In this document: piece by piece, positions 4,830 through 26,388 of the stretch
Layout: each line of letters starts with the position of its first letter
Numbering within the stretch: the stretch's first letter is position 1
Assembly (NCBI GenBank): GCA_015178975.1
Contig: WHVD01000007.1
Location: 682,001 to 746,000 of the forward strand
Direction: 5' to 3'
DNA: 64,000 bases
Origin: Hysterangium stoloniferum
Lineage: Eukaryota; Basidiomycota; Agaricomycetes; Hysterangiales; Hysterangiaceae
Made by a program: the position numbers and the translations under genes
Notes under the pieces: generated by a model
What the model was told of the DNA's origin: nothing
What the model saw: only the letters and a program-made list of their open reading frames with translations
Databases searched by the model: none

Positions 4830-6457
4830 CAGTGACCTCAAAAACCCTTTCCATGTTGACCCCAAATGCAGTGTTTGAAGAACACCACCTTACAGTGTGG
4901 GGATTACACTTAGCTTTGGCGGAGTCATACATAGTACATCCCCTTGGCTACAATATTGCTCCCTGGGTCATGTGATTCTGATCACAGGGTATAGAGATAT
5001 AATTAATTTAAAACAGCAATACCATGGAAAGGGTTTTTGCACTTTTGAACGGAACAGGGTATTTACATATTATCAGTACTTGTTATAACCACCTTTTGCT
5101 TTAAGCACTGCTTGAACCCTTCTAGGCATGCTTTCAATCAATTTCTGACACTCCTCAACTGGTATTCTATCCCACTCCACTTGAATCCTTTCCCACAACT
5201 CATGAATTCCATTGGGGGGGTTTTCATGCTCTGCAAGCCTTCTCTTGAGACAACCCTAGAGATGTTCAATAGGATTCAGGTCTGGGGACTGTGCAGGCCA
5301 AACCATAGTCCTGAATTCTTGCTCTTCTAGCCAGTTCTTGACCAGCCTGCAGGTATGCTTAGGGTCATTATCCTGCTGAAAGATGATGTCAGAAGGATTG
5401 AGACCATAATACTCCAGGGTTTGCTGGAGCTCATCCTTCAAAATTTGAAGATAGAGGTCTCCATCCATCCTACCATCAATCTTGCTAACAAAGCCAACTC
5501 CCTCCCAAGTTATACAACCCCACATCATAAGAGAACCTCCTCCAAACTTCAGAGTTCCCTCTACCAGCTTATCATTAAGGCCTTCACCTGCCCTTTTCCA
5601 TGCCAATTTACGTCTATCTGATCCTAGGCGATTGATTTTGGTTTCATCAGACCATATAACCTTCTTCCAATCCTCCATTGTCCAATCCTGGTGAGCATAG
5701 GCAAAGTCCAAGTGAGCTTTGTGATGTCTAGTGGAAAGAAGGGAGCATTTTGACTTGACCACAGCCTTCATACCAGCTTTCTTCAAGTGGAGGTGAACTG
5801 ACTGGCAGAGAGAGGCTGGTTGATAATGTTGGTAAGGGCTTTGGTCACTTGGACAGCATTTTCAGCTTTGCCAGGAGATGCTGAGCATGTCAAATATTTG
5901 TAGGAGAAAGCTTTGAGGAACAACCCCCAACAGCTTTGGAAAGGAGAGAACAATGTTTGGAGGGAAGTTTGGAGGGAAGTTTGGATATGGCAGATAGGCT
6001 AACTAACACCAATTCTCTTGGCAATAGCTTCACCAGAGTGGCCAGAATCAAGCAAGGAGAGGAAGGTATTTTGTTGAGTAAGGGAGAGGGATCTGACCAT
6101 GATGGTGGTTAGGAATCAAGAAGTGTGGAAGTGTGAGAACTTTTTTAAACTCAGACATACTATTTACATGTATATATCTATTTGTACCAACAAATAATAG
6201 ACATTATTCTATGATTTGACTGAGATCCTAGTCATCAGTTCAAAAGTGCAAAAACCCTTTCCATGGTATTGCTGTTTTAAATTAATCATATCTCTACACC
6301 CTGTGATCAGAATCACATGACCTAGGGTGCAATATTGTAGCCAAGAGGATATACTAGTATGACTCCACCAAAGCTAAGTGTAATTCCCATGCTATAAGGT
6401 GGTGTTCTTCAAACACTGCATTTGGGGTCAACATGGAAAGGGTTTTTGAGGTCACTG
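4830..6457 (-). mobile_element. Tc1/mariner element B (1,628 bp) with ~220-bp TIRs and TA duplication
   Basis: It starts CAGTGACCTCAAAAACCC at 4,830 and ends with the reverse complement at 6,457. The TIRs extend about 220 bp on each side (4,830-5,050; 6,238-6,457). TA flanks both ends (4,828-4,829; 6,458-6,459). It carries a transposase gene on the minus strand (6,100-5,073). Confidence 0.93.
5073..6100 (-). pseudogene. Tc1/mariner DD34E transposase, near-complete with stops
   Basis: DDE transposase that in the family binds the TIRs and moves the element by cut-and-paste. ATG at 6,100 (MVRSLSLTQQ, helix-turn-helix start) is followed by a TAG after IAKRIGVS and a small tandem duplication (about 5,955-5,995) that disrupts the frame. 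From 5,786 to 5,256 a 176-residue frame is open: first Asp in VIWSDETKINRLGSD, second in FQQDNDPKHTCRL, then 34 residues to the Glu of SPDLNPIEHL. The next codon is TAG (5,255-5,253) where the family has Trp (TGG). Beyond it the frame is open to a normal end, AVLKAKGGYNKY then TGA at 5,073. The catalytic triad is intact; two nonsense codons plus the duplication silence it. Confidence 0.9.
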
Positions 6458-8805
6458 TATGTGAAATACTCAGGAAAGTCCATAGAAAATGTGTCCTGGG
6501 CACACTGTCCATTATACCCAATGAGATCCTTGGAATTAGCTTCAAAATAAGCCATGAGAGTTGTCCCTGAATGCTCTGCCCTTTGTAAAGTCTCATGAGG
6601 ACCTTGATCACCATCAAAAAGTACAGTGTTTTCTCCAGGAAGAGGGACCCCAAGTGTGATTACTGCAGGAACCTGGGTATGGAGTTTATTACACATTAAT
6701 CACCAGACAGACTCATGTGTACTGACATAATGTGCATCTACTATTGAATCTCATCTGGTGTTGTTCCAAATTCCATAGTTGTATGATCATGGCCCTTGTA
6801 ACAGTATTTATGGATGTATTTCATTGACCTATTGGTAAAGGTCAACTCTACATTGATGTGGCATTCAAAGGTGAGAATCAAATAGGGGAGTAAGTGACAA
6901 CATGTCTGTTGTCATATGTAAACTTGGAAGTTTCATAAACCCTTCCATTGTTAGGGTGAAGGTATGTTGGATAGCCTTCCTGATTTACAATAGTGGCTTC
7001 ACACCAATCCTTGGGATAGTGTTTACTGCATTTCTTATTTACCATACAAGCAGCATTTGGATTATCAATTCCACAGGGACCATAGGTCATGAGCTGTCCT
7101 GCTAAATTAAATAGTCTGGGATGTGTTTCAGGATCTGGAAAACAGGCAGAAACAAATGAGTTGACATCTTCTGGTTTCTTTGGTTTATCCTGGTCATCAA
7201 ACCATATGAGGCAGTGCATGTGTGGAAGACCACAATTTTGGAATTCAATGACATGGATATGAGCTACTGTTCTACCAAAGATGTGATCTTCTGTGATCAT
7301 CTTGAGCAACTTAGCCTTCTTGGCAGCAATGATACAGGAGACCAAATCAGGCTGATCAGCAGCAGTCTGTCCAGGAAGCCATTCATCAGTCACCTCCTTC
7401 CACTTGGACTTGGCAGTCATGGTGATGAAGCAACTGGCATTGCCATACTTTTGTGCAATTGAAAATGAATGTTGTAGACTTTGTCTCATATCCCTTGAAC
7501 TGCTAGTAAATGTAGAAGGGAGTATCACCCTCTGGCCAATGCTATTGGCATCTGTGTTGACATCCTGATTAGTAAATGCATCAACTACCTGGTTGTAGAG
7601 TTCTGCACATACTGTAACCTTGGTTGATTATCCCTGAGAAATCTCAATCTGCACTGCTCTGTTACTGCCCAGGCATTGACAATATACTGCTGGAATAGCT
7701 TTTGTGCATAAAAAAGGGTCATGGCTTCATGTGCTCTGGGAAATAGGCAATAGGCATAATATTTACATTGGGTCACTTTATGACTTTTATCTTCATCTTC
7801 ACCTTCTTCATCCTGCGGTCCAGGCTGGGGCTGCCAATTTTGATTTACATAGGGAATGTCCCATGACCAACCACACTCACCTCTGGGGAAGAGCATGCCA
7901 TAATGAAGGGGTGTATAAATGGCTTGTGCTTCATGCACATGAACTGCTCCCCTTCTATGAACAATAATATCCCTTGGGTCACCATGACCTGCATCACCAT
8001 TTCCAGGGAGAATGACTGCAAGTTCATCACCAGTTGGAAGGTTGTACCATCTGGGATTATTAAAAGCCTTGTAGCTCAACCTGACATGCAATCTTGGAGC
8101 CTCTGCCTGTGTCCTCAATCATTCATGTGCCTGGCAATAGAGTCCTATGAAGGGGTTATATCGTTCCATCATATCTTGGAGATCACAAAAGGTTTGGTTG
8201 TTTAGGTTTTGATTGGCCCTGTGATTCTGCCTCTGCTGGAATCCCTGCCTCAGTCCATCCTCCTGTGCCAATGCAGGATCATGGATGTAAAGCTGAGCAT
8301 AACTACATGATACACCTTATGTGTAAGGAATCAAGGCACCATGCTGGTGATACAATTCACCATGGATTTTGAAGACATATGGGCCACCACCACCTTGTAA
8401 GACAGATTTATCCAAATTGACACCCAGTGATGTAAATTCATATGCATTATTATAGGCATGAATATTCTTGAGAAATTCTCTGCTATTGTCTGTATTATCC
8501 TCCAGGAGAGACCTTAAAGTGTGAGGGACTGGCTCAAGTATTAGAAGGGCCACCTTTCCTTGCTTGCAACACTTGCCAAATTTTGGATGTGTCTTAGAGC
8601 TATTTGAGATACGCTCATCCATCCAGTGCAAAGATCCACAGTCTGAACACTGTATGTCCATACCTCCCAAGTCATGTCTTTGAAACCTGTCCTCCACACC
8701 TGGTTGCCATCCAATGGGTAATTGTGGAATGGGAGGTGGAGGCATAGCTGCAGGGTGTAAAATGCTTGGAGGTGGGGAGCCATGGGAAGAGAGTGGGAAA
8801 TCCAT
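6458..8805 (-). pseudogene. Helitron Rep domain (Zn finger, HUH, Y2), broken
   Basis: Rolling-circle replication initiator part of a Helitron transposase. Order on the minus strand: proline-rich start (8,805), Zn-finger region CSDCGSLHW and FGKCCKQGK (about 8,650-8,550), GGGGPYVFKIHGELYHQHG, then WYNLPTGDELAVILPGNGD (8,118-7,585), Helitron-like N domain with FITMTAKSKW, and the HUH motif GLPHMHCLIW (about 7,230-7,200). The paired tyrosines are in KYIHKYCYKGHD (about 6,800). An in-frame TGA after QAHE (about 8,118) and frameshifts near 7,540 and 6,880 break it. Downstream it runs into Tc1 element B. Family membership is clear; activity is excluded. Confidence 0.88.
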
Positions 8806-9545
8806 TCATCAATGAACAGAGAGCTTATGACCAGGCAACTGAGCAAATTAAAGCAGATTGAAAACTCGAATGAGTACCAGAGGGTTGCATACAATAAAAT
8901 TATGGATGCTGTCATTGCAAGGCATGAAACTGGAAAGCCTTTCTTTTTGAATGGACCTGGGGGTACCTGAAAATCATTTGTTTGGAATACTTTGGCACAT
9001 GCCTTCTAAGGCAAAGGACTCATTGTACTTTGTGTTGCCTCCTCTTGCTTCACTTATTATGAGTGGTGGGCAGACATTTCATAGCATGTTTCAAGTTCCC
9101 CTTGAGGTTGATGAGAAATCCATCTGTAAAATGAAGAAATGCTCAGATAAGGCCAATCTAATGAAAGTTCCAATGCAGAATTACTTTGCCTGTGAGGCAG
9201 TAGATTGGAGCCTTAGAGATATTCTTAACAAGGATATTTCTTTGGAAGCATTACAGTAGCATGGGATGGTGACTTTCAACAGACATTGCCTATCATTCCT
9301 AAAGGTTCAAAAGAAGATATTATTGGTGCATGTCTCATGGTCTCACCTTTGGAACAATGTCAAGATTCTGTTTCCGACTGGAATATGCATGTAGATCCTA
9401 CTGACTCTGTCCTTGAGATTCAGATGTAGATCAAATCAATGACATACTCTTTGAAAAATTTCCAGACATTGGGAAAACCTCCTACAGTGCAGATAGTGTG
9501 AAAGATAGAGGCAATGAGACATTACTGTATATCAAGCTTATATGC
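8790..9545 (+). pseudogene. second Helitron helicase fragment, plus strand
   Basis: Plus-strand remnants of a PIF1-like Helitron helicase: NEQRAYDQATEQIKAD (about 8,810), SNEYQRVAYNKIMDAV, Walker A as NGPGGT followed by TGA then KSFVWNTL (about 8,950-8,990), GDFQQTLPIIPKGSKE (about 9,270-9,320) and VDQINDILFEKFPDIGKTS (about 9,425). At least six stops or shifts are present. It lies head-to-head with the minus-strand Helitron and is truncated on the right by an LTR fragment. The GGA-to-TGA change removes a P-loop Gly. Confidence 0.8.
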
Positions 9546-10209
9546 TGTGCCCCCACAAATATCCATTAAGTGTCCTTAAATTTTGGATGGGCGAAGACTA
9601 ATCCTAATGAGTTCCTTTCAGCGTAATACTGATTGGGACCAAAGGTTAAGTTAAGTGTCAGGCCAAGGGGTCAGGGACTGAGAGTGAGCGAGTGCACGCG
9701 AAGGCAGAAGATGGAATTCTTAGTATGAGACTTCTGGAGGTGTAAGAGGGTATTCTGAGTCGATATTCTGATTGCCTAGTAACTACAACTACAGTGGATT
9801 TATAAGTTATTGGCATCTCGAAAATACTAACTAAGGGAGAAGTGGAACAATACTATTATTGACAAATAAGCTTGACTAGGAACCAGAAGGTTACAATAAG
9901 TTTGGAGGCTGTGATTAACTGAGAGTGGAATTTACGAGAAAGGAAATAGTTCAAGGGTTGCAAGTATATACGGGCATATGTGAAACATAGAGTCAGACAG
10001 ATCAACATAATAAAAAGGGATGTATCAAAGCATAACCAGATAGTACCAGTATAACCTGACAGGAATGTAAATGGGGTTTGATTGCCATGAAGGCATATGT
10101 CAGTGTTGGGTGACTGACAGTTTCCGATATGATGACTTGATCAATGACTTGAAACATCAATAGGTGGTAATATCCTCGGGGACCGTCAGGTTGTGACACA
10201 GTCATAACA
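9536..10209 (-). repeat. truncated gypsy-type LTR, minus orientation
   Basis: Reads TGTTATGACTGTG from 10,209 on the minus strand and matches, inverted, the solo LTR at 11,113-11,773. Identity is moderate near the start and high in the second half. It lacks the last ~70 bp of the LTR. Together with 11,113-11,844 it forms a long inverted repeat with about 0.9 kb between the arms. No coding sequence. Confidence 0.75.
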
Positions 10210-10390
10210 CCCTCCTAAGCATATTTTCAATAAAATCCTGACACACATTTACATCAATCTTGTACCATTTCTCCACCACCCTCTCTCAAAACTCTTCCAT
10301 CCCCTGGGTTCTCATACCCCCCTGTCAACCTCCTCTTCAGGTTATTCCATAAGTGTTCAATAGGATTCAAGTCAGGAGACTGTGAGAGAA
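10210..10390 (-). pseudogene. Tc1/mariner transposase C-terminal fragment
   Basis: The minus strand reads QSPDLNPIEHLWNNLKRRL (about 10,390-10,330), the third catalytic region of Tc1-type transposases, and in another frame IDVNVCQDFIENMLRRV, matching the C-terminus of element B. Here the Trp after EHL is kept, unlike in element B. Both ends are truncated and there are frameshifts. Confidence 0.75.
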
Positions 10391-10484: not shown

Positions 10485-10640
10485 CAGTTGTAAACTGCTT
10501 TACTTGGTCAAGTGGGTGGGTTCCGAGGGCACAGATGAAGACATCTTGAATATTGGCCATGGAACTCAGGAATGCCACAGAGATTGTCACTGACTTTCAT
10601 ACAGCATACCCACTCAAACCTGGCCCATTATCCTCTCTCT
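10485..10640 (+). pseudogene. gypsy pol C-terminal chromodomain remnant
   Basis: Translation CKLLYLVKWVGSEGTDED matches the chromodomain at the end of pol in elements #1 and #2 (KLLYLVKWVGYEGTDEE), where it is thought to guide integration to chromatin marks. After this point the frame is lost, although DNA similarity to 31,220-31,376 continues. Fragment only. Confidence 0.7.
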
Positions 10641-11112
10641 AACTGCATCACATGTGGACTCCATATACATTTTGGATTCATATCACTATCCATTTTTCAC
10701 CCTATGTCTCTCTTGCTTTTACAGGTTTTAACTTATTTCATTTCTGTCTCAAGCAGATATTCCACAGGTTTTCTCATTTTTCACTTTACTAAGGATATAA
10801 AAACAAAAATAGAGAGAAAAGGAGAATTTCTTTATTAATTAGTCATCTATGACTATTACTGGTCCTCCTTTCCCCACCTTTACAAACCCTTATGCAACTC
10901 TTTTAAGTCTTCTTCCCCCATGGACCTGTCCACCCCTTCAGAATGCCCAGAGCTCCTGGCCTCAGAGTCCTCATAGTCCTTGTAGTCCTTCAGGAACTCA
11001 CCAAATAACCCATGGAAGAAGACCTGGAAACTACCTATGAAGGTCTTCCTCACACTGTTGCCCTCTTCCAACAAAAGGTTTTGGGCCCAATGCCTGCTAC
11101 AATCTGCCCCAG

Positions 11113-11844
11113 TGTTATGACTGTGTTGCAGCCCTATTGGTCCCCGAGGTTATCACCACCTACTGTATTGACGATTCAAGTTACCGTTCAAGTCATCACA
11201 TCGGAAACCATCAGCGTATGCTTTCATGGTGATCAAACTCCATTTACACCCACATCAAAATATACTCAAACTATCTGGTTAAACTCTGATACATCCCTTT
11301 TATTATGATGATCCACTCTATCCTATGTTTCACATATGTCTATATATATTTGTAACCCTCGAACTATTTCCTTTCTTCATAATTCCACTCTCAGTTATTT
11401 CACAGCCTCTGAACTAATAGTAACCTCCTGTTCCTAGTCAAGTTTATTTGTCAATACCATGTTCCACTCTTCTCCCAGTTAGTATTTTCTAGATGCCTGT
11501 TACCTGTATATGAACCCGCTGTAGTTGTAGTTACTAGGCAATCAGAATATCGACTCAGAATACCCTCTTACACCTCCAGAAGTCTCATACTAAGAATTCC
11601 ATCTTCTGCCTTCGCGTGCACTCGCTCACTCTAAGTCCCTGACCCCTTGGCCTGACACTTAACTTAACCTTTGGTCCCAATCAGTATTACGCTGAAAGGA
11701 ACTCATTAGGATTAGTCTTCGCCCATCCAAAATTTAAGGACACTTAATGGATATTTGTGGGGGCACAGCATATAAGCTGAAGCCAAGTCCTTCCGATTGG
11801 TCCCTGTCAGCCAACCGACTTTAGTGAGTTTTCAGTTCTTAACA
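11113..11844 (+). repeat. solo LTR (732 bp), target duplication CCCAG
   Basis: TGTTATGACTG...TTCTTAACA with the perfect 5-bp direct repeat CCCAG at 11,108-11,112 and 11,845-11,849. It interrupts the antisense gene of gypsy #3; the LEEVLG|QIVAGI reading joins across it once LTR and duplication are removed. This is the result of LTR-LTR recombination of a complete element. No coding content. Confidence 0.9.
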
Positions 11845-12374
11845 CCCAGCACCTCCTCCAAGGCCCCCACCCTTTCTGGATGACCACCAGTTTCCTGTGA
11901 ACCAGACCCTGAGGCATCCTGCACCAATGAGCACTTGGCTTTCAAATGCACACATGACCAACAGCCTGGGCCCCAACCAGCTTTCCAAAAACAATTCATA
12001 TTCTGGTGGTGACAACCAGAACACTGTGGGTCATTTTTGATCTGCACCTGGGCTGGAGCATTTTTCTGGGCCTTCTGTCAATCATAAGTCAGTTATGCAT
12101 TACTGTGGACTGCCTACTTACCCTTTGAAGGCTCCCCTACTCTCCTTCAGAATTTATTTTGATGTCCACTGCTTTGTGCTATCAGGACTGTTAGTGAGGA
12201 CTTAAGAAATATATGTTTTGGCTTACCTTCCCATGGCTATTGTGGATACTTTGGTGTGTTCCACAGTGACCTAGGCTGCCTCCTTCTCTGCCTCTGCCTT
12301 CTTGGCAGCTGCCTCTTCCTCTTCCCTTTCCTTCTGCTCCTCCACCTCTTCCTCCATAACCAATGCCACCTGGT

Positions 12375-12625
12375 GTTAAAACTGCCTCCACTGTCTCCAA
12401 GACCTTCTGGAACCTTCCAGCATGTTCCAGAGTATTCTTAGATTCATTTCCCATGACAGCTGTCAATCAGCTATCAGTTTCTATTCCAGGTGTCAATCAG
12501 TTGTCAGTTTCCATTCAAGCTGTCAATTAGCCGTCACATATGGCAGCTAACAAGTTTACTGATGTATAACATATATAAGACTTCAGTGTGCCAGTGTGTC
12601 ACAGTAAGTCACAGGTCACATTTAA
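12375..12625. mobile_element. 251-bp MITE-like insertion with 8-bp target duplication
   Basis: Flanked by CACCTGGT at 12,367-12,374 and 12,626-12,633. Removal restores the QV-ALVMEEE coiled-coil reading of the antisense gene. Ends are GTTAAA... and ...TTTAA, so terminal repeats are very short. It holds about three degenerate tandem repeats around GCTGTCAATCAG (12,455-12,545). An 8-bp duplication is typical of hAT elements; the family call is inference. Confidence 0.65.
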
Positions 12626-12934
12626 CACCTGGTACTCCCTCTCCAGTGCTGCTTCCTCCTCCCTGGCCTCCCTATCCTCCTCTTCCCATCATCACTGTTG
12701 AGCATTTGGGCAGCTGAGAATGGACCCTGGTATGTGGCCCCCATGGGTTTTGGTCCTGGACATTGATGGGGATATGAAAGAAGAAGAAATTTGATTATTT
12801 TCAATGTTTATATAGGCTCCTCACATTTGAACCTTACCTTCCAGATCACCTGACATCTTGACACATATGTGTAACTGGAAAACCTCAACAAATTCTGGGA
12901 CCTCTTTGGGACTTCAGCCTTCAAGGGAGGGTAC

Positions 12935-14241: not shown

Positions 14242-14757
14242 TGTTAAGTTCCATGTCGGGGACTATTGGATAGGGTCAGGACATTGGCTTCAGCTTATGT
14301 GCTGCGCCTCTATGCAAATGCTCAAAGTCCTTAATTTCAGAAGTGAGACTTATGATGGAAGATGTGGATATTCAGAGTTCCGAAGAGTTCTGAATATCGA
14401 GCATACAGAAAGATGGAAGAAGGAATAAGAAACTAAGTCGATATCAGATCTGAGGTAAAGTACAAATTCGCGGAACTAATATAAGTCTTCTCGTTATTGT
14501 ACTACAAACTAAGACCATAATAAGATGGAAACGGAAGTATTCTTAAAACGGAAATACAATAAGACATATCAGGGAGACAATATTCTGAAATGGGAATATA
14601 ATAAACAAATGAGTGAATACCTGTCAATGGACAAATTACCAAATGCGGAACAAGGGAAAAATGCGGAAGATACGGTAACTATGATGTTCCGTAGTCAGAG
14701 ATCGGAAGTCGGAAGTCGGAAGTCAGATATTGAAACATCCAGGAATGGGTCGTAACA
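14242..14757 (-). repeat. 3' LTR of gypsy #1 (516 bp)
   Basis: TGTTAAGTTCC at 14,242 and CGTAACA ending at 14,757 on the plus strand; near-identical over most of its length to 23,160-23,706. It lacks about 30 bp present in the other copy. Confidence 0.92.
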
Positions 14758-14886
14758 GTACCCCCCCTGTTATGCCGAAATCCCATAGAGGCGATTAGGT
14801 ACTGAGTGATTGAAGCGACGGCTGATTATTATGTGCCATGAAATTTACACAATTCTGGAGGTGAGAGTTTCGGCTGTTGTTCTGAG

Positions 14887-14893
14887 TATAAAA
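14887..14893 (+). promoter_or_regulatory. TATA box for the antisense gene of gypsy #1
   Basis: GAGTATAAAAACC lies 50 bp upstream of the ATG at 14,943, between the 3' LTR and the antisense gene, followed by a pyrimidine-rich stretch (TTTGTTTCTTTATCC) that could be the start region. It suggests that the gene has its own promoter inside the element. Confidence 0.5.
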
Positions 14894-14942: not shown

Positions 14943-16083
14943 ATGTTGATTCATCAGCCACTATTCATCACTATCCCAGAAGATTCAGATACCAAAATTG
15001 CCGTGCTTCAAAAAATGTCGAAGGTCGCAGAACTTCAACAAAAAAGACAAAGGATGGAAGAGTTGAAGTGACGTCAGGAGGAGGATGAAAAGGCCTTGAT
15101 GCAGGAGTTGAAAGAAGCAGAAGAGGTGGAAAAACAGGAGTTGGAGCGGGCAAAGGCAGAAAAAGAAGCGTGGATACGGAAAACGGTGGAGGCTCAGAAG
15201 AAGAAGGAAGAGGCGGAAAAATTACAGTGGGAATCGGAGGTGGTGGAAAGACTTAAGGAGATAAGAGAAGGGATGGTAAGTGCAATCCGTAATTTTCTGT
15301 GGTTCCAACTGATAACTATTGGGTACAGCGAAAAGCCATAGGGGTGGAAGTAGAGGGAGAGGCTGGACCTTCGAGTCCTAAAGTAAGTGCATCTACAAAA
15401 GGTCGGTATTTGATTAACTTCCGAAACAGAAGCCAAAGGTCAAGGCTTGGGAATGGATGAAAATCATCCATGACAATCTGTGTTATCGATGTTCCATATG
15501 GAATATGATGTGTTGGAAACAGAAGGTAAAATGGGGTGGAACTTGCTATCCCTGCACAGTTCTCAAACTTCCATGCACTCTCGCCTCGAAAAGGGTTCCA
15601 AAAGGTGAGAAGGCCCAGAAAGCTAATGACATGGAAAGTTTGGGAGCGGCCAAAGCTGCAGAAACTGAGGTGCCGAAAATGGATAGTACAGGCATGGAGC
15701 TCCTCAAGGACACCGTTGCGTTAGTCTTTATCAGGATGGACGTCATGAAAATGCGGGATACGCTAGATCGCCATAATGAAATACAGGAAAAAGGTTTCCA
15801 TTCGTTGATCTGGAACTTCCAGAGGCAAAACAAATTCCTGGAGAAGGTAATGGTTAGCATCGGTGTTATCGCAGTATCCAAGAGATTTTCTGATAAGGCA
15901 CAGGAACAGCCTAATGATCCATTGGCGGAATGTGTCGAAAAAAGGTGGGAGTCAGGAAATGGGCCGGAAGTATCAGAGAGTGAAGATGAAGAGGTGCAGG
16001 ATATGGTGGAAAGTGTGGAGGTTGCTGATGAGATGGAAGTCAGGATGGAAAGTGGATTTGGGATATCAGAGACTTTAAAATAG
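14943..16083 (+). CDS. antisense Zn2-Cys6 protein gene of gypsy #1 (3 exons, one stop)
   Basis: Extra gene carried by the retrotransposon on the strand opposite gag-pol. Exon 1 14,943-15,275 (MLIHQPLFIT start, then a long Lys/Glu coiled-coil with KEAEEVEKQELERAKAEKEA); intron 1 15,276-15,328 (53 nt); exon 2 15,329-15,382; intron 2 15,383-15,429 (47 nt); exon 3 15,430-16,083. Exon 3 opens KPKVKAWEWMKIIHDN and then a Gal4-type cluster C-x2-C-x6-C-x10-C-x2-C-x6-C (CYRC...CWKQKVKWGGTC...CTVLKLPC), followed by a helical middle (DVMKMRDTLDRHNEIQEKG) and an acidic tail (ESEDEEVQDMVESVE). About 346 residues. One TGA at 15,069 probably replaces CGA, so this copy is nearly intact. It ends about 100 bp from the pol stop, convergently. 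A nuclear DNA-binding role is inferred from the cluster only. Confidence 0.7.
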
Positions 16084-19000
16084 TCCTAATAATATATTTT
16101 TTGACTTGCAAAACCTAAAATGAGTGTGATAATGGAAGTGTCAGAAGTGTCGGAGACTGAACAGAAAGAAAACAGGAAAGGGTTAGAGTGATGATAAAGG
16201 TCTGGGTTTACTCGGATAAGCTGTGTGGAAGTCAGTGACAATTTCCATAGTGTGACCAAGTGCCGTGGCCAATATCCATGAAGTTTCCTCATCGGTACCT
16301 TCATAACCTGCCCATTTAACTGAATAGAGCAATTTACAAGTATGTCGGTGATTGTTGATTTTAGAATCCAAAATTTTGGAAACTTGAAATTTGGGTTCTC
16401 CATCAATGATCCATCAATGATGACTGGAGGGGGCAGAGGTTGAATATGTTCTAGGATTTTGTTAGGAACACAGGGTTCTAACATGGAAACATGGAAAACG
16501 GGGTGAACTGCTCACATACTATCGGGAAGTCGGAGAGTCCATGAGAGTAAACCGGCTTGTGCTATAATTTCAAAAGGGCCTAAGAATTTCTCAGTGAGTT
16601 TTTTAGAAGGTCGGGTAGTATGGAAGAATTGAGCTTTTACAAAAACCTGATCACCGATTTTAAAATTAGGAGGTGGGATCCTGTTTTTGTCTGTGGAACA
16701 TTGATAATATTTCTGTGTGAAGAAATAGCTTTCCGAAGTTCTTGATGTAATTCGTCGAGGTCAGTAATAAATTCTTGAGCATGGACGGAAGCCAAATCTC
16801 ATTTGGAATGTACAGTGAGATTTGGATGATAGCCTTTGTTGGCGAAAAAAGGAGATATGCCGGTAGTTGTGTTCAGAGAGTTATTGTAGGTGAATTCCAT
16901 GATCGGAAGAAGGGATTTCCAGTTGTCCTGTTGATAATTGCAATAGATGTGGAGATCTTGTTCCAATGTTTGATTTATGTGTTCTGTTTGTCCATCACCT
17001 TCCAGGTGATATCCCGAGGTGAAGTGTAGTTTCATGTCGAGGGCTTTTCTGAGGGCCTGGAAGAAATGGGAGACGAACTTGGAGCCTCGATCAGAAGTTA
17101 CGTGAGATGGAACACCATGTTTGGAAAATACATAAATAATGAAAAGTTCCGCTAATTGTAAGGATGTGATTGTATCATGAGTGGGTATGAAAATGCCTTG
17201 TTTCGAGAATCGATCCACAACAACTATGCACCTACTGCATTTCTCAAATGTACTTTCTGCTCCATGACCAACCATACTATGGACAAGTGTCATCGCTAGA
17301 ATAGATGTAAAGCCTTCGGAAGTTGGGAGTTGTTCGATAAAATCCATGGAAATTGAGTTCCAGGGTTTTTCCAGTATCGGGAGTTGCTTGAGAAGGCCAT
17401 ATGGCTTATGCCTCTGGGTCTTAGAGTGTAAGAAAGTGGTGCATGACTTACAGAACTGGGTTACGAAATCTCGGAGGTTGGGCCAAGTGTATTCTCTACG
17501 GATTAAACCAAGAGTATTGTTAATGCCGTAATGTCCAGAGATTGGATGATCGTGTTTATAATGAAGTACACGGAGTCAGAGATTGTTGGAATCTGGAACG
17601 TAGATACATCCATCGAGACGGATAAAACCTTGAGAGTCTTGTGACCATCAGGGTTGGTTGGGATTGTCAGGAACTTCTAGGTGTGGCTTGAGAGCCAGAT
17701 TGGAAGTGAGTGTGGAAAGGATATCTTGATGTAATTGCTCAATGTCCATAATCATGACACTACACATAATTGGATAGTAGAGGGAAGTTGCTCAAATAGA
17801 TGTGGAAAGTTGTTGAATTGTAAAAACCAGTTTCAAGTTATGTAAATTGACAATGGCATAGTTACTTTCCCCCTCTTTAGGATAGACATCCCATCGTCAA
17901 GTCATGGCATCTGGTTTTCCACCAAGATGTCCGGGTCAGAAATGGATAATCATGTTGAAAGTGGAAAGGAATTTGGACCAGTGGGCTTGCCACCGGGTCA
18001 AAGGTTTAGTGGTAGAAAAATATTCAAGATTTTTGTGATCGCTAACAACGTCAACAGGAGTTGCAGAACCTTCGAGCGAGATAATGGTGCCAATGTTTGA
18101 AAGCTTCAAAAATTGCCAAAATTTCCTTATCATGAACAATGTAGTTGAGTTCAGACACTTTCAGTGTCCGAGAAAGGAATGCAACCAGATGAATTTCACT
18201 GTCGGAATCTTGAATGGAAAGAATCGCAGCAATTGCATAATCGGAAGCATCAGTTTCCACAATAATCGGAACATCAGGTTTCCAATGGGAAAGAATCGGG
18301 GCAGAAGTGAAAGCATTTTTTAAAGCCTGAAAAGCGGAACAGCATTTATTGTCAAAGACCCAAGATTGAGTTTTACGGGTAAGACGAGTGAGTGTAATGT
18401 ATTAGCCTTATTTTAATACTATTTTCCGAAAAAGGAGTCCAATGCTCTATCAAAATGTGCAAATACTCAATTCACTGCAAGGTAAAATAATTTAAGTATT
18501 TGATATTAATCAGTGGCAGCCTAAATAGACTTAGAACCCCTGAAGTCAAGAGTTTACTTGAATATATGCACCCTACTTCGCAAAGAAGGTTTTGAGAGCT
18601 GCTTGTGCAAGCTTGTTCTTTTTCTGTGATAACAACTACTAAAATAAGAATAACAATTTACTGATTCCGAAGCTAGATTTAACTTCAATGCTAGCTAGTT
18701 TATATATATTTTATACTATTTGTCAAACAGTAAAAATATTTATAAACGGGTCAAAAGATTAGATATAGAATAAAACACTATTTGGCTAATATATGCTTTA
18801 TTTACACTAACCTACAAGGTCTACTGTGATATTAACTTATCAGGATCTTAATGTAGTCTTAAGGATTCTGCAAGGATATTCTCAGTATTTGTTTATGTGA
18901 ATATGCTTTACTGATTCACAATAAATGAACAAAGGAACGGGATTATTTGCAATGTAATAAACAGTCAAATTACTCAACTAGAGGTGACTGAAGTCTTAAA

Positions 19001-19426
19001 CTACAAATAACAATGTAGAGAAAACTAATAATCAAATACTCAATTAAGAGATGACTATAGTATAAGATTATTTATATATTATTAGTTAATAACCAACAAC
19101 TCTAACTGAGGTGGAAATAATATATAAAAGATAGCCAACTATTCAGTTAAGAAGTGGCAAGGGGGAACAAAAGTCAACAACTCAGATTGAGGTGACAGGG
19201 GAACAGCAGATCAGTCAACAGCTCAGATTGAGGTGACAAGGGATCTGATTGGGCCAACAACTCTGATAGAGGTGGCAAGGGTTTCCAACAGCTCTGATAG
19301 AGGTGGAATTAGATGTCCAACTGCCCAGATAGGGGTGGAGTAGCCTGCTTGCTGCAGTGACACACACAGATGTGGTGGGTTGATGTGATGATATGATTTA
19401 TTTATTCAAGGCTGGAGCTGAGCTCC

Positions 19427-19528
19427 TTATATACATTTTAGTCTGAGACATTTAGAAGATTCTAGAAGATTTAATGATGTCATTCTGGGAGGAGTGATGT
19501 CATTTAGAATTTTCTAGAATTTTCTAGA
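19427..19528 (-). promoter_or_regulatory. TATA box with tandem heat-shock elements in the solo LTR
   Basis: Minus-strand TATATAA (19,433-19,427). About 20 bp upstream lies GAAnnTTCnnGAA (19,455-19,467), and further upstream GAAnnTTCnnGAAnnTTCnnGA (19,507-19,528), both matching the HSF consensus of alternating nGAAn units. Two TGACATCA motifs (CRE/ATF-like) lie between them. Directly downstream of the TATA box is the palindrome GGAGCTGAGCTCC (19,414-19,426). Further GAA/TTC units occur at 19,565-19,625. HSF control is inference from the consensus. Confidence 0.6.
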
Positions 19529-19734
19529 GCATTGTGGAAGGTTCTAACTACTTCTAAGACACTATAGAATATTCTTGGCATAATGGAACATTGTAGAATT
19601 TTATAGAATATTCTACAATATTCTATCTAATATTAGTACCTATTAACTAATGTTCCATTGGAAGCCACTGGAATGTTCCAGAGAGTTTCCTGTTTTTGTT
19701 GCAGTAGCATATATGATGACATAATGCTCTCGCG

Positions 19735-19890
19735 CCTGTGCGCGCGCGCATGACACCCTTCGCGTCTTGTGACTGTCACGTGTTGTGACCGTCGCGCGCC
19801 TTTGTGACCGTCACGCGCCTCTGTGACCGTCGCGCGCCCTTGTGACAACTGTCACCTGTTATGACGGTTGTCACTCGTTGTGACGATTTT
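19735..19890. repeat. CpG-rich tandem repeats
   Basis: Repeats of the type TGTGACCGTCGCGCGCC, about 18-24 bp each and degenerate, five to seven copies, starting after a run of GCGCGCGC. Base composition contrasts strongly with the AT-rich surroundings. Such blocks in an LTR could be methylation targets or protein-binding arrays; no function can be read from the sequence. Confidence 0.7.
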
Positions 19891-21904
19891 CCCGCGCGCC
19901 GTGTAATAAACGCCAGGCCGGTTTTATATTATTATATAATTATTATATTTACTTTTAGTTAGTTATAAATATAATATTTTATTATAATAATATAAAAATA
20001 TATATATATTTCGCCTTGATAATGCGCGAGTATTTCAAATCGCGTTTTGTCGGCGTCGGAGTTTGAAATATCATGTGAATGTCACATGATTACTCGCGCG
20101 TTGTGAATAAGCGCTGAGTCGCCGACATATTAATCAAAAAAGAATAAAAAGTAGAAATTCAATAATTTGCTCAATTTATTAGATAAAAATACATAATAAA
20201 TTGTATAAATTCAAGATAAATCAAACAAATATTGTACAATTTAATCGTCGCAATATAATTACATTTGAATATTTGTTTTCGCAATTTGTTAGGGGAAATT
20301 GTTTAAAAATTGGATAAAACTTAGAAATACATAACAGTGAGCGGTACTGTAATATCCGAGTAGTTCCAAATAAAATGACGGTAAAAGTTGGTGAAACCTA
20401 AAAATGACTGAATGTCCTTGACTTTCTGTGGTTTGGACCAATCACAGACAACTTGAACCTTGGTTTCATCCATATGGAGACCCTCAGGTCCGATAATGAA
20501 ACCTAAGTATTCAATAGAATCCATGTCAAAGTAACATTTTTACCATTGGTGAAAAGACCATTTTTATGGAGTCTTCGGAAGATTTCATGGACCTGTTCAT
20601 CGTGAAGAGTGGGATCCTCGGAAAATACCAAAATGTCGTCCAAATAGACTATAACACATACGTCAAGCATGTTGGAAAATATATCATTAACAAAACGTTG
20701 AAAAGCGGAAGGGGCGTTGATAAGGCCAAACAGCATAACCAACCATTCAAAGGATCCATAGCGAGTCCGAAAAGCAGTTTTCCATGCATCGCCCTTGGCA
20801 ATTTGGACCAAATGATAGGCGTGTTTGAGGTCTATTTTGGTGTAGATCTGAGATTTCCGTGGGGCGTCGAGTAAATCGGTAACGAGTGGAAGTGGATACT
20901 TATCTTTCCATGTGATGGAATTTAACCCTCTGAAGTCGACACAGAGTCGAAGGGAGCCATCCTTTGTTCTAATGAAAAGGACGGATGCTCCATATGGAGA
21001 CTTTGAGGGACGGATAAAACCTATTGACAGATATTCATCCAGGAACTCCCAAATAGACGAAAGTTCTGATTGGGATAATGGGTAAATAGGTCCTAACAGA
21101 GGGTTTGAACCAGGCTCAATATCGATTTTTAAGTCGTAGGGCCAATGTGGTGCAAGCCTGTCAGCTTTTTGCTTACTGAAAATGTCCGTGAAATCATGGT
21201 ATTTTTCGGGAACTCCTTCCAGGTCGGCTTTTAGCTCAGATAATTCTGGAGTCACAAAATGTCCAGATGCTTCATCAACTTTTAAGCTGATCGAAAAACA
21301 CTGCGAACCATCCAGTTTACTCGCCCTAACAAATGCCGAAGCATTGATTAGAGAGATTTTTGGAGGCACAGAGGTTTCGGTAGAAGCCGTTGATGCCGTT
21401 GATGCCGAAAAGGTGTTGGCCGGAAGAGACACTGCAGAAGGAACCGAAGTGTCAGGAACTCAGAAATTAATACTGCCTAATACCCAGTCAATCAATGGAT
21501 TATATCGGGTGAGCCAGTTGTATCCAAGAACTACTAAACAGTTAGAGTCCAACTGTGTTATGAAAAAAAAGTAACCATCTGGGATGTTCCACAAGGAAAC
21601 CAGATAGAGATGTCGCAGGCTTGGGTAATTGCCATATTGCTAGTGCCGTCGAACAAATGCAAGGAAATTGTGGGAACAGAATGGAGTTTCAGATTATGTT
21701 TCATGGCAAAGGTGGTATCTACAAAACAGTGTGTGGAGCCGGAATCTATTAGAGCTCAGAACACTAAATTTCCAAGAAAGTCAGAGATGAGTTTTACAAA
21801 TAATGAATCCGGATTGGAGAGAGCAGACACATTGAGACGGATAACCTCAGAAACACGGAGAGAGTCAACGCAACTCTCTGTCCATGCAGATTCTGGAGGG
21901 TTGC

Positions 21905-23125
21905 TTACTCTTTTTTCGACTCCGTGGTGGGTTTTTCCTTAGACGTTGTAGTCATAGTGGAAGTTGCCATGTGGGCCTTGGAAGAGTTAGATTTAACGGT
22001 ACAGTCAGAAACCTTGTGTCTGCCTTTCCAGGCAGAGGTCATTGTCCATACGTCGTTGTTTCTCCTTTGGAGTGAGTTTACCGTCGGTGCCCAACAAATG
22101 GGAAATGTCGGGCTTGTCAGAAGTTGACTGTTTTTCCTTGTTGGATTTCTTGTCTTTCTTCCAGTTGGAGTTTGATTTGCCAGTATTAGTGCCAGAGTTG
22201 CCGGTGTTATTGCCTGAGTTGTTGCCAGAAGACTTGCTAGTTGATGCCTTGTTATTCTGAGAATGTTCCATCGGGTTCTCTCGAGAGACCTCAGCTTTTC
22301 ATTCCCAATAACAGGCATTGGATGTTTGAGCTTTAATCTGCATGAGTCAGAGAGTTTTCGGCTTCCCATCTTTGCAGATCTCGTCTTTAAGGCGTGATAG
22401 AAGTCCCATATAGAAATAGTGCCTGAGGGCGGGATTGTCCCAACCACATCGTGCAGTGAGGGTATTGAACTTGGCGAGATAATCGGAAACTCATTGATTG
22501 TCCTTCATCTTAAGTGTCATTAATTCATTTTCCGCTTTGCCGGATTGATCATAAGGTCCGAAATTAGTTTCCAGTTCTTCCACAAAAGCATCCCAGTCAT
22601 TGAGCCATACGGGTGTCTCGTCGGATATTCCAGATAGTCCGGGTTCGAACCAATCTTGAGTGGTATCCTTGAGATAAGAGAGCATGAAATTGACTTTTTG
22701 ACCGTCGGATTTAAATGCAGCAGGTTGATCACAGAAACTGAAATGGCATTGGAGAAGGAAATTCTTCAATTTTTTTGGATCCTTGCCCGTAAATGGTTCG
22801 GGTTCTTTGACTCTGGTGCGGGATGATTCTTTACTATCCTCAGCAGATTTCAAATAGTCAGCGAATTTCACAATGGAGTTGATAAACAACATTTCAGTCG
22901 GTTCATCGGAAGATTTCTTTTTCGATGATTCCAGCTGATCTTCTGCTTCATTGTCAGAAGTGTGGGGAATATTGGGGTCCTTCATTACCTCGGTAACCTC
23001 CTTGGTAACTTCTTCAACTGAAGCTGATGTTGTCGGCTGAATTGGGGTTTCAGGTTGAGTGGTGTAAAATTGCAACAGGATTGAAGTTGGGATGGTCCTT
23101 CAGCAGCTTTGCGTTTGGGACCCAT
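21905..23125 (-). pseudogene. gypsy #1 gag, frameshifted
   Basis: Structural polyprotein that packages the RNA. ATG at 23,125 (MGPKRKAAEGPSQLQ) lies 35 nt from the 5' LTR. A 1-nt shift leads into the frame 23,075-22,491, which contains PEPFTGKDPKKLKNFLLQCH and DWDAFVEELETNFGPYD, the gag capsid signature. A further shift near 22,490 leads to an Asn/Ser-rich linker (GNNSGNNTGNSGTNTGKSNS) and MDNDLC, where the CCHC zinc knuckle has lost a few bases. It ends SKKE-stop at 21,905, overlapping pol as in gypsy #2. Confidence 0.85.
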
Positions 23126-23159: not shown

Positions 23160-23706
23160 TGTTAAGTGCCGTGTTGGGAACTTATTCCAGAACTATTGGA
23201 AAGTCGGGAACTATCGGATAGGGTCAGGACATCAGCTTCAGCTTATGTGCTGTGCCTCTACGCAAATGCTCAAAGTCCTTAATTTCAGAAGTGAGATTTA
23301 CAATGGAAGATGTGGATATTCAGAGTTCCGAATAGTTCCGAATATTGAGCATACAGAAAGATGGAAGAAGGAATAAGAAACTAAGTCAATATCAGATCTG
23401 AGGTAAAGTACAAATTCGCGGAAACTAATATAAGTCTTCTCATTATTGTACTACAAAATAAGACCATAATAAGACGGAAACAGAAGTATTCTTAAAACGG
23501 AAATACAATAAGACATATCAGGGAGACAATATTCCAAAACAGGAATATAATAAACAAATGAGTGAATACCTGTCAACAGACAAATTACCAAATGCGGAAC
23601 AAGGGAAGAATGTGGAAGATATGGTAATTATGATGTTCTGTAGTCGGAGATCGGAAGTCGGAAGTCAGAAGTCGGATATTGAAACATCCGGGAATGGGTT
23701 GTAACA
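23160..23706 (-). repeat. 5' LTR of gypsy #1 (547 bp)
   Basis: Plus-strand ends TGTTAAGTGCC (23,160) and TTGTAACA (23,706). It shares nearly all positions with 14,242-14,757, with about 30 extra bp near 23,180. No typical TGG-type tRNA primer site abuts its end (the next bases on the minus strand are GTATATCAGATCTG), so the priming mode is open. Confidence 0.92.
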
Positions 23707-24857
23707 GGAAGCAATAATGACTGTATCCAATCTAGCAGTGCTGTGACATTATGTGAAGAGTCGATAGATTCTGATCGCTCAATATATGAAGAATAGTGTT
23801 TATTCAACTACTATTAGAAAGTATTGACCGCTCAGTACAATACTATAGATTACTAGACTGATAGTACAAGTATAGGGATGCACTACACATCACAAGAGTG
23901 ACTGTACAGTTGCTCATGATGACTAGAACAAGAGAATAGAAGAGTTGACCCTTACGGTACAACTTGTAATTAGAAGTAAGAAAGATAATCAGCGAAAGAC
24001 TGAATATCTAGGGTAGAGAGATAGCAGCGTGAGTCGACTACAGTGTCAATGAGTGCAGAGTCTTGAGAGTGGAACTCGACCTTCACGGTTCAAGTCCAAA
24101 TACTATTAGTATGCAAGAAGACACTACCTTTATGGGTAGCTGAGATATTACCCTTGACACCTCTTGCTATTTGACATCTGAGTTGTTACGAGGTGGTGTC
24201 TGCTGGGTAAAAAAGTATCTGTTGTTTGATACCGAGAGTGCCCATAGATATACACAAGACTTCGAACTAAGAAATAAGAAATAAGGGTATGCTCGAAAGA
24301 TATAGAGAATTAAAGAAAAGAAATAAAACTAGATAATAAAGTACTATAATACATATATTATTCCACAGTCCAATTATGATATATGCATACCCTTCACACG
24401 TTGGCCCAATCCTCGAAGATTCATGATTCATCTTTTGTACAAGTCAGTCATCATTTACACTCTTATATTTTTAATATTTACTGACACAAAAGCACAGTAT
24501 GAACTCTTAGTAAAAAATCGATGCCATGGTGCCCATGAACCAGCAGAGATCTGTCAAGTGTTCTATGGCCAGCTACAGTATATCCTGGATTTCAAGCTCC
24601 CTTGATTGCAAGAACTCAATGTCCAGCATGCCCATCAAACCGTTCTAGCATGCATGAAACCCTGCATCACCAATGGCAAAGATGCCACCATTGAAGTGAC
24701 ATCATACAAAGGGATGTCCACAGTTATTTACATTGATCTTCAGACAATTCAATGTGTTGTGGGTCGAGTTGAGTGCGCCCAGGATTGGTTCATTATTGAC
24801 TGCAGTGGTGGTACAGCACGCACAGTATTTGTTGATCCCGAAGACAATGACGAATAG
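23707..24857 (+). pseudogene. Tnp2/CACTA-like gene, part 2 (after the gypsy insertion)
   Basis: 23,707-23,806 continues the reading NNDCIQSSSAVTLCEESIDS from part 1. About 680 bp without recognisable coding follow. Coding resumes after a probable intron end (TTTACTGACACAAAAG, about 24,497) with QYELLVKNRCHGAHEPAEIC, VFYGQLQYILDFKLP, a TGA at 24,603, then TNGKDATIEVTSYKG, IQCVVGRVECAQDWFIIDC and a stop at 24,855-24,857. This resembles the tail of basidiomycete proteins linked to Tnp2 transposases, where a similar VVGRV---WGIID motif is common. The product cannot be intact. Confidence 0.5.
23807..24420. other. non-coding stretch inside the Tnp2-like gene
   Basis: AT-rich, no open frame above noise, no clear terminal repeats or target duplication found by eye. 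Probably an inserted fragment, since the gene reads on both sides. Nothing else supported. Confidence 0.4.
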
Positions 24858-24885: not shown

Positions 24886-25176
24886 TTACATTGTGATACA
24901 GAGGCAGACAGTCAAGTTTGCAAGCATTTCAGGAACTTCATATAAGTGCCTCATGTACCTTTCTACAAGCTCCTTCAGAAGGGATTTTATCTCAGTGTAT
25001 TCATGCTCTTCAAAAAAGTGCCTTTTTTTTTTACAAAATAAAAATACTGTGCTCTTAGATGTAGCTCCAGTTTGCACTATGTCCCAGTGAAAGCTCCTTA
25101 TGGGCTTAAATGAAGTGCAATCTCTTCCTACAGTGTCATGATGTAAAAGGTATATGTAATATCCTGCCCACATCAC
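24886..25176 (-). other. unidentified minus-strand open frame at the edge of module X
   Basis: 96 codons open, the most protein-like part being KRHFFEEHEYTEIKSLLKEL and VERYMRHLYEVPEMLANLTV. It overlaps the start of the duplicated module X (24,979 on), so only its first part recurs at 32,470-32,657. I do not recognise it; it may be chance or the tail of a convergent gene. Confidence 0.2.
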
Positions 25177-25535
25177 TTATCGTTGTATTTTCATTTTCAT
25201 ATCACCTTAGTTTTGTTAATATATTGTGTACAGTGGATATATTTTAATGTTTTGAAGCATGCTGGTGTGTGTGTATTAGTACATAATTACATAGATTAAT
25301 ATATGCAAGTTCATAAGTTGATAGCTGGGTATCTCATTGGACGTGCCAGACCCAGATTTTTATCAATATCATTGCCATTTAAAGAGGGGCTGGTGGTCTA
25401 AATTGGATTATAGTCGCTTGTAACTGACCTGATGAGACCTACAATGCTTAGATACATAATGACGAGAACTCAGAATCCCAAGAAATCGTGCAATGGTCGG
25501 TGAAAGATGGCAAAAGGTGCTCGGAAACCAAGAAA
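24979..25535 (+). repeat. module X, copy left of gypsy #2 (557 bp)
   Basis: Nearly identical to 32,461-33,016, including the junction with the LTR. Related sequence occurs at 34,855-35,280 (inverted), 41,090-41,320, 48,060-48,500 and 53,050-53,150, all next to gene-array units. It is therefore a flank module of the array and the target into which gypsy #2 inserted. Confidence 0.85.
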
Positions 25536-26352
25536 TGTTATGACCGGACAATCCCGCCAGACTCCGGGCACTAACCCATATGCCCCATGCCCCACATGCA
25601 CCAAATGTCTGTTTATAGGATTTCCCGCCCGGACTCCATATGTCAAGACTTGGTACATTCGACCTCATTACAACATATATCAGTTACCAGATTTCCCCCA
25701 GACTCCATCTCTGTCTATGTCCATCATTGTCCCATGCATCAGTCACCGGACCCCACTCAGAATCCCATCACCACTCTAATCAAGCCCCATTCCCATTTTA
25801 GTCAAATGACCTGTCACGATTTAGGACTCCACTCCCACTCTGTTTCCCGTTATGGGTTATGCTTTGTCATGTTTTGGACTTTGCTCCATTCCATCCTGTT
25901 CCTAACACCAAACTTGGTGTTTATTATTCCCGTTTTATGTTCTGCTCATTTCGTCTCATTATTACTGGATTCGGTATGACATTTACTCCATGGTCTATTT
26001 AAACTGGCAGATGTTATACATACAATCCAGTCAGAAAATTAGCTTAGATTCCCCCCAGTAATCTAATCCATTTTCCGCTCTAAACCCTTGCTTGATTCAC
26101 ACCGCTCGCACTAGTCGGAGCCCACAGGCTCTGGCACATCTATCTCTCTCAACTATCTCAACTCACAACCCACGACCTCTGACCTACAACCTATGACCCA
26201 CAAACCCCACCTGGACTCCCTGGCATTCCCGTCCGCCTGTTCAAAATTGGACAACATGATCTAGCGAGGGCGCAGCCTATGAGTTGAAGCCAAGTCCTAC
26301 CGGATATCCCACAGGTTTCTCCAGAGACCTGCCCTGTGTGTGTATCCTAACA
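25536..26352 (+). repeat. 5' LTR of gypsy #2 (817 bp)
   Basis: TGTTATGACCGG...TATCCTAACA. Preceded by AGAAA (25,531-25,535), one change from the AGGAA duplication flanking the LTR at 33,017-33,732. Gag starts 37 bp downstream (26,389). Confidence 0.9.
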
Positions 26353-26388
26353 GTATTTTCTGACTAACACTCACAGATTGTTTTCATT

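Follow-up and report, generated by a model that had tools for sequence, protein, structure and literature searches.

An antisense, intron-bearing gene with a six-cysteine cluster in chromodomain Ty3/gypsy elements of the fungus Hysterangium stoloniferum

Genes that lie antisense to the main genes of a retroelement have been described in fungi, plants and retroviruses. In Botrytis cinerea, Boty-like gypsy elements carry brtn, an antisense additional gene between pol and the 3' LTR, which was originally reported by Zhao et al. (2011, Virology 417:248) and is taken here from papers that cite that work (PMC7264820, PMC8365987, PMC4227169). The plant elements Retand, Grande and RIRE2 carry antisense ORFs as well (PMC11963269, PMC7264820), and gene23 of Grande is nuclear and has its own promoter, as cited in PMC7264820. 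In its passages on these genes, the same review gives the function of both the plant and the Boty antisense genes as unknown (PMC7264820). In HTLV, HBZ and APH-2/3/4 are spliced antisense products, several of which are described as acting on their own LTR (PMC10186651). Here, we analyzed a stretch of 64,000 nucleotides from the fungus Hysterangium stoloniferum, referred to as the window, together with the rest of the genome, and compared the antisense gene found in this stretch with those systems.

The window contains three Ty3/gypsy elements or fragments, denoted as elements #1, #2 and #3 and representing families 1, 2 and 3, and the copy of the antisense gene is damaged in all three. Gene models and domain matches confirmed a first-pass annotation of the window in placing the gene antisense to gag-pol and between pol and the 3' LTR in each of them (Table 1). 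The three copies share a plan of three exons and two short phase-0 introns, in which exon 1 is charged, exon 2 is an acidic stretch of 18-19 aa with RK...SPxK, and exon 3 contains C-x2-C-x6-C-x9/10-C-x2-C-x6-C. The same exon plan and phases are found in diverged families, and the earlier statement that the cysteines, the architecture and the two intron positions are kept holds. The two LTRs of element #1 are 93.3% identical, its 3' LTR contains the tandem array (TCGGAAG)3.3 at 14702-14724, and its pol is interrupted by an insertion of approximately 1.9 kb at 18405-20335, as judged by comparison with the related locus L069. The Cys6 cluster of element #1 reads CYRCSIWNMMCWKQKVKWGGTCYPCTVLKLPC with the spacing x2, x6, x10, x2, x6, and exon 1 contains an in-frame TGA at 15069-15071 that the first-pass annotation did not mention. 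The TATA box at 14887 lies outside the LTR, 129 nt inward from the LTR boundary at position 14758.

Damage is heavier in elements #2 and #3 than in element #1. In element #2, gag-pol is on the plus strand and the antisense gene is on the minus strand. In exon 3 of this copy the reading frame is disrupted 5' of the cysteines, and the translation bears out the earlier observation that the second cysteine is replaced with Phe. The repeat pair at 25024-25323 and 32505-32804 is a separate flanking repeat and does not represent the LTRs of element #2. The undisturbed order is presented by a relative of element #2, L070, in which an LTR, gag, pol with a chromodomain, the antisense gene and a second LTR follow each other, with the two LTRs being 97.9% identical. 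Element #3 is a 3' fragment that consists of chromodomain remnants followed by the antisense gene on the minus strand. A 0.67-kb repeat (11112-11778) interrupts the gene, and exon 1, by reading of the sequence, apparently holds a second insertion; the Cys6 cluster of this copy reads CSGCHHQNMNCFWKAGWGPGCWSCVHLKAKC. The 0.67-kb repeat forms an inverted pair (84.6% identity) at 9535-10210 and 11112-11778, the latter inside the element #3 gene, and also flanks the L070 element on both sides. Elsewhere in the window, a DDE_3/Tc-type transposase remnant and a Helitron-like N-terminal domain are located at 5256-5858 and 6878-7624, respectively. The region 34000-64000 is a long array of diverged repeat units (approximately 64-93% identical) in which 18 of 20 ORFs of at least 120 aa are on the minus strand, as counted by eye, and six ORFs of this array gave no Pfam match at E≤0.01.

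Table 1. Coordinates of the features of elements #1, #2 and #3 in the window.
Element	Feature	Position	Strand	Basis or remark
#1	3' LTR	14255-14758	- (element sense = -)	LTR pair comparison
#1	TATAAAA box of antisense gene	14887-14893	+	56 nt 5' of ATG
#1	Exon 1 of antisense gene	14943-15275	+	Lys/Glu/Arg-rich, heptad-like
#1	Intron 1	15276-15328	+	53 nt, GTAAGT...CAG, phase 0
#1	Exon 2	15329-15382	+	18 aa, acidic, RK...SPK
#1	Intron 2	15383-15429	+	47 nt, GTAAGT...CAG, phase 0
#1	Exon 3	15430-16083	+	Cys6 cluster followed by a probable helical region and the acidic tail; stop codon TAG
#1	Cys6 cluster	15481-15576	+	C-x2-C-x6-C-x10-C-x2-C-x6-C
#1	Integrase region of pol	16799-17575	-	H2C2, rve
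#1	Reverse transcriptase region	20503-21459	-	RVT_1, 1.4e-27
#1	gag region	22491-23099	-	DUF4939, 1.8e-8; Retrotrans_gag, 0.0017, under its cut-off
#1	5' LTR	23203-23707	-	LTR pair comparison
#2	5' LTR	25536-26353	+	Comparison with the 97.9% identical LTR pair of L070
#2	Integrase and Tf2-type SH3 region of pol	30136-31212	+	Domain search
#2	Exon 3 of antisense gene	31568-32043	-	In-frame TGA at 31868-31870
#2	Cys cluster	31907-31999	-	C-x2-F-x6-C-x9-C-x2-C-x6-C; second Cys is Phe
#2	Exon 2	32093-32149	-	19 aa; read by eye; same exon in other family-2 copies
#2	Exon 1	32203-32459	-	5' end lost at ~32459 to flanking repeat
#3	Chromodomain C-terminal remnant of pol	10486-10639	+	E 1e-18; convergent with antisense gene
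#3	Antisense gene remnant	10839-12763	-	Ends approximate
#3	Cys6 cluster	11931-12023	-	Six of six cysteines

To survey the genome (111 Mb in 554 contigs), we used exon 3 of families 1, 2 and 3 as queries, and each gave at least 150 listed genomic places, among 673, 1,022 and 1,062 candidates, respectively; the places listed for family 3 run into family 2. Among the matches listed, the matched stretch was devoid of in-frame stops in 105/150, 106/150 and 122/150 cases for families 1, 2 and 3, and the in-frame stops among the listed family-1 and family-2 matches are mostly TGA. We fetched the loci of the best 30 matches each for families 1 and 2, with the window's own two included, and integrase was found downstream on the opposite strand in 30/30 family-1 and 29/30 family-2 loci (59 of the 60 fetched). 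Many more gypsy copies than those of the window thus carry the gene, and the absence of other copies, which the first-pass annotation had named as a refutation, does not apply. In the converse search from integrase, 75 of the 150 matches listed (2,691 candidates) have a match to the gene within 2.5 kb, and all 75 of these gene matches lie downstream on the opposite strand; the other 75 integrase matches are uninformative because the comparison covered 282 listed gene places out of a larger set of candidates. A near full-length LTR lies beyond the gene start in 26/30 family-1 loci (>480 nt) and in 21/30 family-2 loci (>780 nt), the latter often ending within the LTR.

The chromodomain (PF00385) was detected in both of the two long stretches read, with E-values of 2.6e-7 in L070 and 7.3e-7 in L069, and it stands at the C-terminal end of pol, which places the host elements among the chromoviruses. 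As an antisense additional ORF between pol and the 3' LTR that is present in many copies under a constraint like that on other element genes, the gene belongs to the loose aORF-3R class, which is described in plants and in one fungal element, Boty (PMC7264820). For family 3, pol remnants were found only at the window copy among the three loci read, and the flanks of L072 and L073 gave no pol match. L079, a longer stretch around the L073 copy, contains other element sequence after the gene. Downstream of that family-3 gene copy, L079:2311-7417 is bounded by a 272-nt direct repeat and contains Copia-like ORFs by reading of the translation. Counting left contig ends only, 32 of the 150 listed family-2 matches are within 6 kb of one. 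We considered subtelomeric targeting and rejected it, as five such contigs contain neither TTAGGG nor CCCTAA in their initial 400 bases, which were read by eye as element sequence; the position of these matches is therefore likelier to reflect assembly breaks in young copies.

The splice sites, the start, the TATA box and the frame of the gene are mostly kept among the fetched loci. Of the 30 loci of family 1, 27 have GTAAGT as donor 1 and 27 an acceptor 1 ending in AG, 29 have GTAAGT as donor 2, all 30 have an acceptor 2 ending in AG, and 26 retain the ATG context. A strict pattern comprising exon 2 and both of its boundaries was found in 22/30 family-1 and 20/30 family-2 loci, and the start MGPKP shares its frame with the first donor in 22/30 family-2 loci. 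By raw pattern count, TATA[AT]A[AT] occurs in the scanned upstream stretch of 24/30 family-1 and 25/29 family-2 loci, with L043 left out of the latter because this locus is cut by a contig end. Introns of an antisense gene can survive retrotransposition, since it is the opposite strand that is reverse transcribed, and there these sequences do not act as introns.

With moderate confidence in the explanation as a whole, we propose that the gene is an accessory gene of a fungal chromodomain Ty3/gypsy group and encodes a regulator of its own element. The gene would be transcribed convergently to gag-pol, probably from a TATA promoter of its own that lies immediately inward of the 3' LTR, and its transcript would be spliced. 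The predicted protein has a charged, probably coiled-coil N-terminus and a six-cysteine, probably zinc-binding module, followed by a region that is probably helical and by an acidic tail. It may enter the nucleus, dimerise via the coil and bind nucleic acid with the cysteine module, and may thereby regulate the transcription, the silencing or the genomic RNA handling of its own element. By analogy with the antisense proteins of HTLV and with the role proposed for the plant antisense ORFs, the protein is most likely a nuclear nucleic-acid-binding regulator of the element that encodes it.

Gal4-type Zn2Cys6 clusters have the spacing C-x2-C-x6-C-x5-12-C-x2-C-x6-8-C. The spacing in families 1-3 (x2, x6, x9 or x10, x2, x6) falls within this pattern. 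In the family-1 alignment (21/30 loci, leaving out rows with stops and L021), four cysteines are invariant and two nearly so, and in the family-2 alignment of the 14/30 loci without stops all six are invariant. In a PF00172 profile search, the check that had been suggested for a Gal4-type assignment, the gathering cut-off of 21 bits was reached by none of the products of families 1 and 2. Thirteen of the 14 family-2 members matched at E≤10, with a best E of 0.35 and with member 1 at 10 bits, whereas 3 of the 21 family-1 members did so with a best E of 2.6, and exon 3 of the window had no match at E≤10. Furthermore, the basic signature CRxxKxKC of the host's own PF00172 proteins is missing from both half-clusters. 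Scored by BLOSUM against classical first halves, the N-terminal half (4 examples) reached -2.5 to 0.75 and the C-terminal half -2.5 to -0.25, whereas the four classical first halves used as controls reached 9.0 to 15.3. We also considered a half-swapped Gal4 cluster with the basic half in second place. Three of the four examples scored better when swapped and one the reverse, none of them near the controls, and the half-swapped cluster was not upheld. As such, the Gal4-type label of the first-pass annotation stands for the number and spacing of the cysteines but does not extend to membership, which we reject because two of three testable features, the Pfam cut-off and the basic signature, fail.

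Searches of Pfam and PDB gave no match over threshold for the antisense protein, and a search of IMG/VR with family-1 exon 3 gave three pattern matches, none of which is a relative. Structure prediction from three window sequences reached a mean pLDDT of 46, too poor for use; in that model, the region of exon 3 after the cluster is helical.

Comparing families 1 and 2, the cysteine regions were aligned by hhalign over 44 columns at 30% identity (E 4.4e-7, probability 92.6), using profiles with little diversity within each family. The exon-2 peptides of the two families, RKAVEVEVEGEAGPSSPK and RKATEVELESEGEPESPQK, are alike as well, and the intron phases are identical. The two families are 75.9% identical over an RT stretch of 224 aa, and the sole common match between their LTRs is 31 bases long. 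The antisense protein and the LTR thus diverge much faster than pol between the two families. As for short motifs in the LTRs, the family-2 LTR of L070 contains the tandem arrays (GGGTCGT)5.9 and (GGAAC)4.6, and such tandem motifs are candidate targets of the antisense protein.

A family-specific DNA-binding factor that reads the tandem motifs of its own LTR and counters silencing or times expression is a narrower form of our proposal, which we regard as possible but doubtful. If it is true, the protein and the LTR co-diverge while pol is conserved, so that each family would be a separately regulated unit, and HBZ or VANC would have a fungal equivalent that relies on a non-Gal4 cysteine cluster.

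The same tandem motifs bear on a VANC-like anti-silencing role, in which the protein would bind motifs in the non-coding DNA of its own element and remove or block DNA methylation; we consider it unlikely. In exon 3 of the fetched loci, the C of CpG reads T in 286/1169 cells (24.5%) in family 1 and in 282/1523 cells (18.5%) in family 2, compared with 2-4% for C to T outside CpG, and from this CpG decay the host appears to methylate the cytosines of these elements. Such a role would fit this apparent methylation, the short tandem arrays in the LTRs of element #1 and L070, and the divergence of cluster and LTR beside a more similar RT, which looks as if protein and LTR co-diverge. It would also recall VANC, whose targets are described as frequently taking the form of tandem repeats, with differences from one related element to another (PMC5735166). 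However, the CpG decay also suggests that the copies were methylated in the end, and the CGG counts did not single out the LTR. The mean z of CGG counts was 2.3 in the LTRs of 26 family-1 copies and 2.5 in those of 21 family-2 copies, and 2.2 (n=9) and 2.4 (n=5) in the respective gag-pol segments. CGG pairs 5-12 bases apart exceeded z of 2 in 14/26 and 21/21 LTRs, with mean z of 2.1 and 5.0 in the LTRs against 1.4 and 3.3 in gag-pol. Considering that the gag-pol controls are equally enriched, we rejected CGG as an LTR-specific target; the only exception is that CGG clustering in family-2 LTRs exceeds that in gag-pol, which shows some too. That the protein may control its own LTR, as the first-pass annotation put forward, gains no support from the CGG test.

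The cysteine module and the coil would suit RNA as well as DNA, and the basic residues in the loop between the half-clusters of family 1 are in line with RNA binding. A Rev-/Rex-like or gag-partner factor, whose coil and module bind the genomic RNA for export or packaging, is nevertheless quite unlikely in our estimate, as the sequence gives no preference for RNA and a nuclear regulator has the better precedent among the antisense retroelement genes described (PMC10186651, PMC7264820).

To estimate selection on the gene, we compared codon positions and substitution rates among the fetched loci, all of which are the best matches to exon 3. In exon 3, diversity at codon positions 1, 2 and 3 was 0.075/0.075/0.167 in family 1 (30 copies) and 0.079/0.058/0.177 in family 2 (29 of 30 copies, with L043 dropped because it is cut by a contig end). 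The dN/dS in the coding frame was 0.248 and 0.227, respectively, and this frame is free of stops in 22/30 and 13/29 rows. In the other frames dN/dS ranged from 0.9 to 1.8, except for the minus-strand frame that shares the wobble base (0.316 in family 1 and 0.293 in family 2), and each non-coding frame has stops in 30/30 family-1 and at least 28/29 family-2 rows. Exon 1 gave a dN/dS of 0.326 in family 1 (27/30 rows, a stop being present in 24 of 27) and 0.367 in family 2 (28/30 rows, a stop being present in 10). In the copies read, the dN/dS of both exons is far from 1, a value that the first-pass annotation had named as counting against its interpretation.

A comparison of the same loci with integrase suggested that the gene is the more constrained of the two (0.248 vs 0.515 in family 1; 0.227 vs 0.468 in family 2), and we withdrew this claim. 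As the loci were picked by their similarity in exon 3, raw dN is biased low, and the apparent excess constraint over integrase results at least partly from this choice. In the 17 of 26 usable family-2 rows with a stop-free integrase, a check made inside the same set, dN/dS was 0.221 for the gene and 0.232 for integrase; the antisense gene itself is stop-free in 7 of these 17 rows. In family 1, two usable rows only had a stop-free integrase, with values of 0.093 for the gene and 0.322 for integrase. The constraint on the antisense gene is therefore like that on integrase and not greater. In the same 17 family-2 rows, synonymous divergence was 0.25 in the antisense gene compared with 0.11 in integrase, which could result from inter-element recombination or from faster mutation of the antisense gene, which is rich in CpG. 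At the level of sequence, the analysis demonstrates the gene model, its constant position and strand relative to pol, the retention of splice sites and reading frame, and purifying selection. Considering its position, the kept splice sites and frame and the dN/dS together, the gene is therefore a retrotransposon gene under purifying selection.

Codon-level constraint also bears on the idea that the antisense transcript, rather than a protein, acts by pairing with the genomic RNA and feeding small-RNA silencing or copy-number control. Any antisense transcript would be complementary to the 3' part of the genomic RNA, and such a role has been proposed in print for plant antisense ORFs (PMC7264820). 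However, diversity at position 3 is more than twice that at positions 1 and 2, dN/dS is approximately 0.23-0.25, and the other frames are without such constraint beyond the shared wobble base; the transcript as the sole function is therefore largely refuted, and we consider it very unlikely. That the gene was captured from the host and is carried along without serving the element is hardly credible, since its place, strand, exon plan and cluster are the same in diverged families and under constraint, and, although the host genome has many genuine Zn-cluster exons (42 PF00172 matches), none of these coincides by eye with a listed gene place of families 1-3. Among the 42 matches, those at C115:74483-75050 and C56:27459-45410 of the genome occur in series, a pattern suggestive of single proteins with several Zn clusters each.

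We favour, then, an antisense accessory regulator encoded by the element itself, which would be similar in function to HBZ, Grande gene23, Retand TRP28 and Botrytis brtn, and this reading can be set beside the described systems. The likeness to brtn lies in the host, a fungal chromodomain gypsy element, and in the antisense position between pol and the 3' LTR; brtn was compared by description alone, and the descriptions in the citing papers mention neither introns nor a cysteine cluster. The plant Retand and Grande ORFs resemble the gene in position and strand, in being kept in most copies and in being suspected nuclear regulators, as far as the cited accounts describe them. The word intron is absent from the text on plant antisense ORFs in PMC11963269 and PMC7264820. 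Unlike the chromodomain elements here, Retand is of a non-chromovirus lineage, and its protein has a TRP28 domain (PF04195) instead of a Cys6 cluster according to the passages on it. Pfam scans gave no TRP28 match at E≤10 for 35 exon-3 proteins, at E≤1 for two pieces of exon 1 from element #1, or at E≤0.01 for one L070 exon-1 ORF. HBZ and the APH products share with our gene the layout of a retroelement whose 3' end carries a spliced antisense gene for a regulator, the regulatory role here being ascribed by analogy. While HBZ is described as a bZIP protein whose expression is driven by the 3' LTR, the TATA box here is outside the LTR, and the exon-1 pieces scanned (element #1 and L070) gave no match to a bZIP domain. 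VANDALs are not retrotransposons. VANC of the Arabidopsis VANDALs is nevertheless a possible parallel, since its protein and non-coding targets are described as co-varying between families (PMC5735166).

Among the matches listed, the open-access titles and abstract openings reported neither a Zn-cluster gene nor a spliced antisense gene for any fungal gypsy element. The fungal case offers hundreds of candidate copies in one genome, an intron-bearing gene model and measurable selection, and with it the role of antisense retroelement genes becomes testable in a microbe. It also carries a warning for annotation, as intron-bearing, Zn-cluster-like antisense genes could easily be miscalled as host transcription factors. 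Compared with the known systems, an antisense gene in a retroelement is already familiar, and what looks new here is the cysteine-rich protein that it encodes.
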